Assembly: GCA_026003755.1 (NCBI GenBank)
Contig: BPHV01000004.1
Span: 248,001 to 312,000, forward strand
Origin: Candidatus Roseilinea sp.
Lineage (GTDB): Bacteria; Chloroflexota; Anaerolineae; J036; Brachytrichaceae
Length of the DNA stretch: 64,000 bases
Direction of reading: 5' to 3'
Under the pieces are notes generated by a model, which searched no databases, had not been told where the DNA came from, and worked only from the letters and a program-made list of their open reading frames with translations. Every line of letters begins with the position of its first letter. Within the stretch, counting starts at the first letter, position 1. This document shows, one piece after another, positions 6,809 through 51,187 of this stretch. The position numbers and the translations under genes are program-made.

Positions 6809-9800
6809 ATGGAACCGCAGCTATCTTCTAGGCTCATAAGCCGCTTAATCGTCCCCTTGCTTGGCGGAGCGTCTGCTCTGTATAAGAGAAAGGCGCGCGC
6901 CGGCCCCGCTGCGCCTTCGCCGCCGAGTCCGGCGCAGGCCAGCGCATCTCAGTTCAGTGCGGAAGACATCCTCGGTTCACACATCCGCAACGTCGCCGGC
7001 GACTACACCGAGATCGCGGTCAAAAACGTATTTCCCGCATGGCAGATGCCTTCCGCCGCTGCAGTCAATCGGGTCACGCTGCCACCCCGCCGGCCATTCG
7101 TGGGACGAGAAGATTTGCTCGCGCGCTTGGAAGAACGTCTGAAAAGCGCCGATGGGGTGAACGTCATCTGCCTCACCGGCACAGCCGGGGTGGGCAAGAG
7201 CGCGCTTGCGCTGGAAGCGGCTTATCGGTTTGGCGCCCTCTTTCCCGACGGCTGCTACTGGGTAGACCTGCGGGGCAATGACTGGGTAGAGGCGCTGCGC
7301 GGACTGCTGAGCGCGCTGGGCGTACCGCACACCGAGGAACTAGGTCAAGATACGCTTGCTCTGGCCGAAATCGCCCGCGGACGGTTGGCGGATAAGCGCA
7401 CCTTGTTGATCCTGGATAACGCCGAGAACGTCGTGCGGCGTCACCGACAGCACGTGCTCGCCCTGTGTCCTGCGGCGCCGGCAAAGACCATCATCACCAG
7501 CCGCATCATCATAGACACGGACGACCTACGTGTGGATGCGCTGAGCGACAGCGACGCGCTGAAACTGCTGGAGGCCAAAGGCATCTCTATCGCCGACCAA
7601 TATGACGACGCGCTCAAACTGGTCAGGCGACTCGGCAATCTGGCGCTTGCCATCGCCATCATGGCGCGGCGCATGCGCATCATTCAGCCGACGCAATCGT
7701 GCGCCGACAGCTTGCGAGAGCTAGACAAGAGCGCCACTCCGATAGACGCGCTCAGGCTTCCCCTCAGTAATACACCCGATGACAGCCTCGCCGCAACATT
7801 CGCCCTCTCGTATGAGCTCCTCGATGAGCCACTGCGAACGGCCTTCCACGCGTTAAGCCTCTGCGCGCCTTCCGGCGCGTCCGTTCAAGGCATTGCGCGC
7901 ATGTGCGACATCACCGAGCCTGTCGCGTGCGACAGGCTGCGAGCGTTGGCTATGCTCTCGCTGGCCGAGTTCGACGGCCGGCGCGCGCAACTCCATCCGC
8001 TGCTCAGGGACTGGGCGCACACCCTTCCTTTCGAGCGCGATGCGCTGATCACACGACATGCAGCGTACTTTGGCTTGGAGATCGGCAACCGCTATCAACA
8101 GGCGCTCAACAGCGAGCAGGACCCACTCCCTGCGCTCATCCGGATCGACGCCGAGTTGGCTAACATCCAGCTCGCTCAGGAACGCGCGCTTTCGCCCAAC
8201 TTCCCGGCGCCGGAGCTGGCGGTAGAGATCACGGATTGCCTGGCGCTCTACTGGTGTCAGCGTCACCTCCCTCCCCAACAGCGCCTGCGGTGGATCAACC
8301 GGGCCTGCCGTCTGGCGGAACAAACGCAACAGCGAAATCACCTCGCCAACTTGCTGCAGGCAGCCGGCGACGCGCAGACATTCTGCGACCAACACGACGC
8401 TGCGCTGCAATCTTACCGACAGGCGCTCGACTTGTTCACCGCGCTGGATGACCGGTTGGGCCAGGCCAACACGCTCAAGGCCATCGGCGACGTGCAGGCC
8501 TTCCGCAAGGAGAACGACGCCGCGTTGCAGTCCTATCAGCAAGCGCTCGATGGGTTCGCGGCCATCGGCGACCGGTTGGGCCAGGCCAACACGCTCAAGG
8601 CCATCGGCGACGTGCAGGCCTTCCGCAAGGAGAACGACGCCGCGTTGCAGTCCTATCAGCAAGCGCTCGATGGGTTCACGGCCATCGGCGACCGGTTGGG
8701 CCAGGCCAACACGCTCAAGGCCATCGGCGACGTGCAGACTTTCTGCGACCAGCACGATGCGGCGCTGCGCTCCTACACGCAAGCGCTCGGCCTGTTCATC
8801 GCCACCGGTGACCGGATGGGCCAGGCCAATTCGCTCAAAGCGATTGGGGATCTAAGCGCTTCGCGCGACCAGCATGACGCGGCGCTGGATTCCTACGCGC
8901 GTGCGCTCGACTTATTCACGGCCATCGGCGACCGGCTGGGCCAGGCCAACACGCTCAAGGCCATCGGCGACGTGCGGGCCTTCCGCAAGGAGAGCCACGC
9001 CGCTATGCAGGCGTACGATCAAGCGCTAGGGCTGTTCTCTGCTGCAGGCTCATCACTGGGGCAAGCCGGTGTGCTCAAAGCCATCGGCGATGTGCTCGCC
9101 TTCCAAGACCAGCTAGACGCAGCTCAGCAAGCATATCAGCGCGCGCTCGAACTGTTTACCGTGGCAGATTCGAAGCTTGGCCAGGCCAACACGCTCAGGG
9201 CGCTCGGGGACATTGCAGCGCTTCATCACGCTCACAATGAGAGCGAGGCTGCGCTGTCATGGTATCAACGCGCGCTCGAGTTGTTCAACAAGATCGGCGA
9301 TCGGCTGGGTCAGGCGAACACGCTCAAGGTCATTGGGGACGCCTATGCCCAGCGCGGAGAAAGCGACGCTGCGCTGCATTCATACGAGCAAGCGTTGGAA
9401 TTGTATATCGCGACCAACTCCCAACTGGGACAGGCGCACACCCTGCATGCAATCGGGGACGTGCAAGCGGCATGTGGGCAAGAGGCCCAGGCGCTCAAGC
9501 TATATGAGCAAGCGCTAACGCTCTTCACCCTGGCGGGATCCACGCTCGGGCAGGCCAACGTCTATGCGTCCCTCGGTCGCATCAGCGGCAAACGCGCCCA
9601 CTTCGACAAGGCCATTCGGCTATACGCCAGCATACAAGATTTGTACAGCCTCGCCCGGTGCAAGTTCTACTACGCGCTGAGCGTGCTGGATCAAGATAGC
9701 GACATCGCCCGGGAACTGCTCATGGATGCCAAGTCGCTGTGGACCCAGATTAACTTCGAGGAAGGCAGAGCGGCCGTGGATGATCTGTTGAGCCAGCTCG

Positions 9801-49277: not shown

Positions 49278-50093
49278 TTACGCTGAGCCGCGTGGCGACG
49301 CCAAGCGTGTAACGACGTGGTGCGGATCGTCTAACACGCGGGGGCATGGCGCGCCGGTGAACGCCACACACACCGGCGCCGGATCAGGCAAGTGCGGCAC
49401 CAAAGCGCGCACATGACACAGCGCCAGGCCGACGACGTTGAGTGGACAACCGCGGATGTGGTCAACGGGCTGGAAGGCGGGATGCTGCGCAGCATAACCG
49501 CCGGCCTTGTCAAACGGATCGCCGGTGGCGATGTAGGCCTCGATTTCGTCATCGCTGTAATGGCGCATCGTTACTTGCGATGAAACAGCGTCAAGGCGTT
49601 CGTGTCCGTTCCAACAGATCACAATGGCCGACTGCACCTGATGGGTGCGCCCGCGCAGGCGGCGCAGCATCGTGCGTGCTTCGTCGGCGTCGGCGGGTTT
49701 GTTCAGCATCTCGCCGTCCAGCACCACCGTGGTGTCGCAGGCGATGATGATCGGATCGGAGACCGGAGATTGGGGATTGAGGATTGCGTGCGATATAGGC
49801 AACTGCTCGACCTGGGCTGCACAATCTCCAACCTCTAATCTCTTGCGCGCAATGCGTGCCTTCTCACGCGTGATGCGGCATTGGGTCTCGAGCGGCGTCT
49901 CATCCGGCAGCGGAGTTTCGTCCACGTCGGCCGGGCACACCTGAAACGTCACCCCGAGCAAGGCGAGTAGCTCACGCCGACGAGGCGAGGCAGAAGCGAG
50001 GACGATCGAGGATTGGGAATTGAGGATTGACGATTTAAGATTGGAGATTGGAGACTGAGAATCAGGGATTGGCAGTTGCGATAAATGATTCAT
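49278..50093 (-). CDS. maf: Maf-family nucleoside triphosphate pyrophosphatase with repeat-encoded insertions
   Basis: 271 residues from the ATG at 50093. The Maf core is clear: SIVLASASPRRRELLALLGV, DVDETPLPDETPLETQCRI, IIACDTTVVLDGEMLNKPA, DPFDKAGGYAAQHPAF. Two segments are not Maf-like: residues about 5-29 (LPIPDSQSPISNLKSS, ILNSQSS) and an insert near 97-125 (ISHAILNPQSPVSD). Both are encoded by the heptamer-type repeats at 50005-50074 and 49754-49847, which here happen to be open in frame. The enzyme hydrolyses non-canonical or pyrimidine NTPs. A start further in, close to SIVLASASP, cannot be excluded. Confidence 0.85.
   Translation of the reverse strand: MNHLSQLPIPDSQSPISNLKSSILNSQSSIVLASASPRRRELLALLGVTFQVCPADVDETPLPDETPLETQCRITREKARIARKRLEVGDCAAQVEQLPISHAILNPQSPVSDPIIIACDTTVVLDGEMLNKPADADEARTMLRRLRGRTHQVQSAIVICWNGHERLDAVSSQVTMRHYSDDEIEAYIATGDPFDKAGGYAAQHPAFQPVDHIRGCPLNVVGLALCHVRALVPHLPDPAPVCVAFTGAPCPRVLDDPHHVVTRLASPRGSA
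49754..49847. repeat. Heptamer-type repeats in inverted halves inside maf
   Basis: Variants of GGAGATT/GGGGATT/GAGGATT run from 49754 to 49787, and inverse variants (AATCTCC, CCTCTAATCTC) from 49822 to 49847, with 34 bp between. The halves could pair. They encode a non-conserved insert in Maf. Confidence 0.8.
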
Positions 50094-50160
50094 AAGCAGC
50101 AAATCTCCGATCTCCAATCTCCTATCTCTAATCTCCTATCTCTAATTTCTAATCTCCATC
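50005..50160. repeat. Heptamer-type repeat array in inverted halves around the maf start
   Basis: 50005-50074 carries GAGGATT, GGGAATT, GGAGATT and related units; 50101-50160 carries many units such as ATCTCCT and ATCTCTA in inverse orientation. The maf start codon (50091-50093) lies between them. Short tandem heptamers of this sort are familiar in Cyanobacteria and Chloroflexota intergenic regions. Confidence 0.85.
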
Positions 50161-50179: not shown

Positions 50180-51187
50180 TCAGCCGATAAACTCGGTGCG
50201 CTTGAGCACCTCGATGTTCTCAAGCGCACGACCGGTGCCGAGGGCGACGCAAGCGATCGGTGCATCGGCCACATAGGCTGGGACGCCGGTCTCTCGGGTG
50301 AGGTATTCGTCGAGCTTGTGCAACAAGGCGGTGCCGCCGGTCAGCGCCATGCCGCGGTCAATGATATCGGATGCCAACTCGGGCGGCGTGCGTTCCAGCA
50401 CCGACTTCACGCACGCAGAAATCTGCGCCAGCGGTTCTTGCAGGGCCTCAACAATTTCGTTGGTCGAGACCTCAATCGTGCGCGGCAGGCCGGTGACCTG
50501 ATCACGCCCCTGCACTTGCATGTACATCTCTTCTTCCAGCGGGAGCGCGCTGCCGATGTTGATCTTGATTTCTTCCGCAGTCGGTTCGCCAATGGCCAGG
50601 TTGTACTTGCGGCGAATAAAGTTCTGAATAGCCGCGTCGAGCTTGAGGCCGCCGACGCGCACAGAGTTGGCGACGACGATGCCGTTCATGGAGACCACGG
50701 CGGCCTCGGCGGTGCCGCCGCCGATATCAACCACCAGGTTGCCTGTGGCGGTATCCACCGGCAAGCCTGCGCCGTATGCGGCGGCCAGCGGCTCGCGGAT
50801 CGGGAAGACCTCACCGGCGCCGGCTTCGATGGCCGCCTCGCGCACGGCGCGACGCTCGACGCTGGTCACGCCATAGGGCACGCCGATCACCACGCGCGGC
50901 GGCAACAGGCTGAAGCCCTTCGCTTTATTCACGAAGTGCTGCAGCATCCTCTGCGTCACCTGGTAATCGGCGATCACGCCATCGCGCAGCGGCCGGGCGA
51001 CTTCAATCTCGTCGGGAGTGCGGCCGTACATCTGGCGCGCCTCTTCGCCAACTTCCACGACCGTCTCCTCGCGCGAGAGAATAGCAACGACGGAGGGCTC
51101 CTGGATCACAATGCCCTTGCCCCGCACATACACCAACACGTTGACGGTGCCGAGGTCTATGCCGATCTCTGCCCGAAGGATGCCCAT
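50180..51187 (-). CDS. mreB: Rod-shape-determining actin homologue MreB
   Basis: 335 residues. Actin-fold phosphate loops: [51 protein letters not shown]; also [20 protein letters not shown]. The length is normal. It polymerises under the membrane to guide cell-wall synthesis. mreC/mreD are not adjacent; instead it follows atpC on the same strand with 72 bp between, and precedes maf. A rod or filament shape is implied. Confidence 0.93.

Follow-up and report, generated by a model that had tools for sequence, protein, structure and literature searches.

The two GGAGATT-type array sets at the maf gene of this Candidatus Roseilinea genome belong to a dispersed family of heptamer repeats that is also carried inside many other protein genes. 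Alignment of congeneric genomes shows that different heptamers occupy one codon site in different species. We consider it probable that the family consists of convergent pairs of heptamer arrays that change length in a slippage-like manner, spread by short-tract recombination and are filtered by reading frame and protein structure, being otherwise neutral or mildly selfish. The window analysed is a stretch of 64,000 nt (G000:C4:248001-312000) from a source genome of 3.34 Mb in 5 contigs, referred to as G000; its congeners are referred to as G001 to G008.

Array pairs at the maf gene

The maf locus contains the following features, given in window coordinates.

49278..50117, minus strand: maf ORF, 279 aa from TTG 50117 (Pfam PF02545, 5.7e-52)
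50093-50091, minus strand: ATG, likely maf start, giving a 271-aa product; located in the start-set spacer, between both arms
49754..49786, plus strand: internal set, GRGATT arm; read on the minus strand as AILNPQSPVSDP, residues about 111-122
49787..49821: internal-set spacer, 35 nt, non-heptameric
49822..49842, minus strand: internal set, inverted arm; maf reading KRLEVGDC, residues 92-99
50004..50072, plus strand: start set, GRGATT arm; maf N-terminal PIPDSQSPISNLKSSILNSQSSI, residues 16-38
50073..50101: start-set spacer, 29 nt
50102..50158, minus strand: inverted start-set arm of about 8 heptamers, in the gap from the mreB stop to the maf start
50180..51187, minus strand: mreB, the upstream neighbour of maf (Pfam PF06723, 4e-133)

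Both sets consist of a plus-strand arm followed by a minus-strand arm of GRRGATT-type heptamers. The first-pass annotation had proposed two inverted sets, one at the maf start and one in the gene interior, both read through in frame. The extents found here (50004-50158 and 49754-49842) agree with this, and the maf ORF is open across both sets and includes the peptides LPIPDSQSPISN and ILNPQSPVSD. The inverted arm of the start set was recovered by TRF as a period of 7 in 8.1 copies. The listed TTG start at 50117 is located inside the start-set array, while the final GGAG of the inverted arm lies 11 nt upstream of ATG 50093-50091; on sequence grounds, this ATG is likely the better maf start. The window contains 19 matches to the 14-mer GRRGATTGRRGATT (≤2 mismatches), compared to a shuffle mean of 2.37 (sd 1.57, maximum 8; n=100), and 17 of the 19 are at the maf sets. 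A 120-nt tandem repeat (5.3 copies), with multiples, occupies window positions 8365-9120.

The AlphaFold model of Maf is shallow (4 sequences, mean pLDDT 65, pTM 0.66), with E. coli YhdE (4p0e, TMt 0.80) as its best fold match in the PDB. Confidence drops to pLDDT <50 at residues 1-34, 102-118, 203-214 and 262-279, and by sequence the 31 residues 90-120 compare with 7 residues in YhdE. Within this model, the two maf sets give a low-confidence N-terminus and a low-confidence loop.

A comparison of Maf length in relatives was made by the KA-to-ACDTT motif spacing, for which the motif pattern was unreadable in 4 of 30 loci. The loop spans 38 residues in G000, G002 and G007, compared to 11-20 residues in 17 readable genomes of other genera. 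Among the remaining congeners, the spacing is 45 in G001, G003 and G006, 27 in G004, 26 in G005 and 20 in G008. The step from 38 to 45 corresponds to 7 residues or 21 nt, i.e. three heptamers. The NK_OTU-006 (Candidatus Roseilinea sp.) Maf has 83% identity in its best segment (L119). The same inserts were not found in the more distant Maf proteins of the 17 readable other-genus genomes, and a search for Maf relatives in viral contigs confirmed none. The earlier description of the inserts as non-conserved holds in that the peptides are unseen outside the genus, but not for the internal insert, which in a DNA alignment of congeners (G008 absent) is common, with its heptamers, to G000, G002, G007 and G001. 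The Maf loop of G003 and G006 is of comparable or greater length, with few or no heptamers. Furthermore, the inverted arm of the internal set aligns without gaps to less heptameric sequence of G003, G004 and G006, the G004 counterpart GCGGTTGGCCGTTGGCGGTTGC being itself roughly 7-periodic. An old loop insert that decayed in G003 and G006 fits the congener tree (5711 sites, support 75-100; G008 and G005 treated as outermost by distance), with exchange between lineages as the alternative. The internal pair is probably older than the split of six congeners.

G000, G002 and G007 carry the start set. G001 and G004 lack it and have, immediately after the mreB stop, a GTG that is usable as maf start. 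The ATG of the start-set spacer is lost in G002, and the longest maf ORF of the NK_OTU-006 record opens at TTG. The start pair probably displaced an older GTG start adjoining mreB, and we read both maf pairs as passenger sequence. A genome from another genus of the family (G014, L081) carries a heptamer-like peptide, KGSPLQSPIPNLS, just upstream of its maf start, hinting at an array between its mreB and maf genes as well.

A dispersed array family within and between genes

The repeat family proposed from the maf sets extends across the source genome: GGAGATTGGAGATT (≤2 mismatches) has 198 matches compared to 43 for the reversed pattern, and arrays stand in frame in many other genes. The heptamer load varies with the species. 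A total of 34 clusters in G000, 33 in G007 and 33 in G002 were examined, using as seed the 14-mer with ≤1 mismatch in G000 and G002 and the exact 14-mer in G007. The 34 clusters are all listed G000 sites with ≤1 mismatch; L031, L032, L034, L039, one L035 pair and one L047 pair stand outside this set, as these were listed only at two mismatches or found beside others. A G002 site at a contig end (C68:125) was left out. The 21-mer (≤2 mismatches) occurs in 27 of 301 genomes sampled from the phylum. No description of a GGAGATT array family was found in the literature searched, which reached few subscription journals, nor did a search for Roseilinea together with repeats yield any report.

All clusters of mixed orientation are convergent (20/20 in G000, 20/20 in G007 and 21/21 in G002). 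Hence the purine-rich arm comes first in 61/61, orthologues included, with no divergent pair; the 40 mixed clusters of G000 and G007 represent 31 distinct sites. A convergent pair reads as a purine-rich arm followed by a pyrimidine-rich arm on both strands. Since the pair is alike on both strands, neither transcription nor a leading/lagging bias can distinguish them, and the fixed polarity thus indicates either a 3'-end-polar process or selection against the divergent form. Unpaired arrays do have a strand preference. The sense strand is G-rich in 19/25 of those between co-directional genes (9/10, 6/9 and 4/6) and C-rich in 9/10 of those inside genes, with orthologues counted separately in both cases.

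Clusters wholly inside open genes amount to 13/34 in G000, 15/33 in G007 and 20/33 in G002 (48/100 together). This intragenic share is below the coding share of the G000 loci (0.89), so genes are avoided, yet they are far from array-free. Array-bearing genes include those for MutS (domain III), ArgC, PurB, the AlaRS core, GlyRS, FtsW/RodA, an FAD/iron-sulphur oxidoreductase, PMT-type membrane proteins and YfhO. The array is located within or between Pfam domains in MutS, ArgC, PurB, the AlaRS core, FtsW/RodA and an ABC ATPase (L031), the latter with a weaker pair outside the 34 clusters. Intragenic GGAGATT arrays read as (RLEIGDW)n...(NLQSPIS)n, and we infer their translation from open frames called with our own simple codon-usage gene caller. 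The stop-free nature of GGAGATT was considered as a special property and rejected, given that 8264 of the 16384 heptamers are likewise stop-free, whichever strand is read.

Two further observations concern individual loci. In G000, AlaRS is split at about 1872-1932 of L042 (G000:C1:728500-733500) into two overlapping ORFs of 572 and 257 aa in different frames, and the G002 orthologue (L161) has 906 aa and no stop; the split is either a sequencing error or a real frameshift. The arrays at L036 and L037 have a PUCC gene and a gene for a nitrogenase-type oxidoreductase as neighbours, in line with a phototroph.

Length comparisons were limited to arrays also found in the fetched G002 or G007 loci. 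For orthologous intragenic arrays (G000 versus G002 or G007), the length difference is a multiple of three in 18/18 cases, the seven non-zero values being -21, -6, -39, -36, +6, +15 and +21. The corresponding figure for other arrays is 11/21. Individual steps are not always whole heptamers: MutS of G000 has, relative to G002, one extra heptamer and one heptamer minus a base (net +6), and PurB of G000 contains a 15-nt repeated unit made up of two heptamers and one base. In FtsW/RodA, G007 has the full pair and G000 a single arm, 36 nt shorter.

Unit swaps and identity islands

The ArgC site carries GGAGATT arrays in G000, G002 and G007, and a GGATCGT pair in G001. An identical GC-rich insert of other sequence is common to G003 and G006, G005 has unrelated sequence of similar length, and G004 and G008 are short. 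In the L041 gene, GGAGATT arrays are present in G000, G007 and G001 and a GAATTGA pair is found in G005, with no such array in G002, G003, G006, G004 or G008. GAATTGA forms a second, abundant heptamer family and GGATCGT a third. GGATCGT has 35 matches in G001 compared to 1 for the control, and GAATTGA has 245 in G005, 270 in G001, 202 in G007 and 19 in G000, compared to 0 for its control in all 9 genomes.

The GAATTGA arrays of G005 were counted as 40 clusters in 37 loci (L224-L260) among the matches listed, with sites near contig ends left out. Among these listed matches, 23/23 mixed clusters are convergent and 20/40 clusters lie inside genes, where their predicted peptides are ENEELRI and NSQFSIL. 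TGA occurs in the purine strand of GAATTGA, and all 9 unpaired intragenic arrays among the listed matches are read from the pyrimidine-rich strand.

The first-pass annotation had described a repeat inserting into the gene. Insertion of a fixed element seems unlikely from the alignments of MutS and Maf, in which one arm is gapless against less heptameric or non-heptameric relatives, and from the unit, which varies by species at one site. The purine arm of MutS aligns without gaps to G008, which is devoid of heptamers by 18-mer search, and the other arm exceeds the corresponding stretch of G005 and G008 by 21 nt.

Array and flank conservation was determined in 41 orthologous comparisons. Array similarity exceeded that of the far flanks in 16, matched it in 2 and fell below it in 23. 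The 16 cases indicate that some of the arrays, including several inside genes, do not evolve as free sequence would, which slightly weakens the neutral reading and slightly strengthens the regulatory rival considered below. At two loci, compared with G007, the array is spanned by an exact-identity island:

L041:2398-2570: 173 exact nt around the array (G007 counterpart L142; aligned locus 85% identical)
L049:2404-2561: 158 exact nt around the array (G007 counterpart L154; aligned locus 85% identical)

The next-longest exact runs are 68 and 59. At L041 and L049, and at no other locus compared, the similarity of array and near flanks reaches 98-100% against a context of 83-84%; L035 and L055 display a milder rise against G002 (97-98% vs 86-88%). 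In the sister genome G002, the L041 gene is 95-96% identical to G000 in the flanks and 51% over the island, with no array. Between species that differ by about 13%, exact identity over these two arrays suggests short-tract exchange, and both islands could reflect active array mobility.

Origin of the arrays and known heptamer systems

According to the model we favour, arrays would gain or lose units by slippage-like change or unequal exchange, giving the length steps, and would move between strains by short-tract homologous recombination, giving the identity islands. Purifying selection would remove frame-breaking or structure-hitting arrays and little else, leaving survivors in termini and loops, and the repeats would be neutral or mildly selfish rather than regulators. 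Our preferred source of the polarity, snap-back copying from purine-rich 3' ends, is a conjecture. The 19/25 sense G-rich bias of unpaired arrays between co-directional genes speaks against neutrality, which does not predict it. The same bias would be accommodated if the arrays were functional RNA or translation elements, with the GGAG heptamers as multiple Shine-Dalgarno sites masked by the inverted arm and maf translation conditional as a result. We regard this as unlikely. The ATG does occupy the hairpin loop, 11 nt downstream of a GGAG, and the fold of the start set has a z of -2.63, with 0/200 shuffles as good. However, the internal set has a z of -1.31 with 19/200 shuffles as good, G001 and G004 lack the array at the start and have a possible GTG start beside the mreB stop, the spacer ATG is lost in G002 and the longest NK_OTU-006 maf ORF starts with TTG. 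Furthermore, arrays are found in or beside functionally unrelated genes. The mRNA hairpins suggested by the first-pass annotation thus find some backing in the start-set fold and less in the internal set, and G001 and G004 lack the start set; as judged from these folds, translational control by hairpins is weakly supported.

An unlikely possibility is that the arrays are selfish alleles spread by array-centred gene conversion. A hairpin would provoke a break or loop repair, and the array with some 30-60 nt per side would be copied into other strains wherever the homologous allele is empty or different. Polar copying directed from the 3' end would keep pairs purine-arm-first, the 7-nt length would be set by the machinery and the unit sequence would drift by species. 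Arrays would be tolerated in genes because the units are mostly open and their lengths are filtered to multiples of three. Polarity and the constant length of 7 with a variable unit (GGAGATT, GAATTGA, GGATCGT) could also stem from a template-bound polymerase adding purine-rich heptamers at both 3' break ends prior to joining, in line with 0 divergent pairs among the 61 GGAGATT mixed clusters and the 23 GAATTGA clusters among the matches listed. We consider such polar end addition quite unlikely, as some arms align gaplessly to older sequence and unpaired arrays are common. The palindromic shape, the dispersion and in-frame peptides as in RPEs recall a mobile unit of the RPE or MITE kind, i.e. 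a fixed palindrome with defined ends, moved by a transposase in trans and in frame by chance. This is highly improbable and largely refuted by the absence of common ends. No core is common to the 40 spacers (0-35 nt). Among the 20 spacers of at least 8 nt, any given 8-mer is found in two at most, and the shared 8-mers come from one orthologous pair. No target duplication was detected for 28 elements (sum 77 vs mean 80.5, p 0.82), one 9-nt direct repeat at L132 being an isolated case, and no spacer duplication in 20 tested (p 0.38). Without a shared core or target duplication, the arrays are not transposon-like in appearance, and the heptamer at one site depends on the species. Selection on the inserted peptides themselves, as binding or localisation motifs for instance, is scarcely credible. 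The same peptide types do recur across unrelated proteins, but they are a product of the DNA unit whichever frame is read, differ where another unit family occupies the site and are absent from ArgC of G004 and G008 and from the L041 gene of G002.

Here, in bacteria other than Rickettsia, core enzymes repeatedly receive predicted peptide loops from a DNA repeat, with close relatives displaying other states of the same site. The exceptionless polarity in the samples, the unit swaps and the array-centred islands make heptamer origin testable within one genus.

The published systems are compared here on the basis of excerpts of the cited accounts. The Rickettsia palindromic elements (RPEs) comprise families about 150 bp long whose peptide is conserved (review PMC10969869). 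GGAGATT pairs are likewise palindromic and in frame within protein genes; unlike RPEs, the 40 pairs have no fixed element or conserved sequence in common and share only a unit. The likeness to Rickettsia drawn by the first-pass annotation therefore survives for the in-frame outcome and not for the anatomy, which lacks a core and target duplication; the missing target-site duplication also separates the arrays from MITEs. In marine Beggiatoaceae, TAACTGA occurs as sporadic direct repeats, many near start codons, with one indirect repeat (PMC4679880). The heptamer unit and sporadic distribution are shared with GGAGATT, whereas the sense strand of the TAACTGA unit contains a stop codon and GGAGATT is open. 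Heptanucleotides have been proposed to favour polymerase slippage (reported in PMC4679880).

The closest parallels are heptamers described in excerpts of PMC4692102. Nostoc GGGGA(C/T)T repeats are 68% intergenic with few inverted pairs, and heptanucleotides occur in Calothrix too (PMC4692102). The Nostoc unit is nearly identical to GGAGATT and has a higher intragenic share than that of Xanthomonas, but is rarely paired, and the excerpts contain no analysis of frame. The Xanthomonas GGGAATC heptamers are dispersed and tandem, with 70 (Xcc) and 75 (Xac) close convergent pairs, three-G runs forming G-quadruplexes, and intragenic shares of 11% and 7% even with partly overlapping copies counted (PMC4692102). 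GGAGATT arrays resemble these in their tandem 7-nt unit, dispersal and close convergent pairs. In contrast, they are not rare in coding sequence, with 38-61% of sampled clusters wholly intragenic, and their consensus has two adjacent G, which by sequence does not suit a quadruplex, although single GGGGATT units occur. The arrays form a variant of the heptamer-repeat type seen in Xanthomonas and Nostoc.
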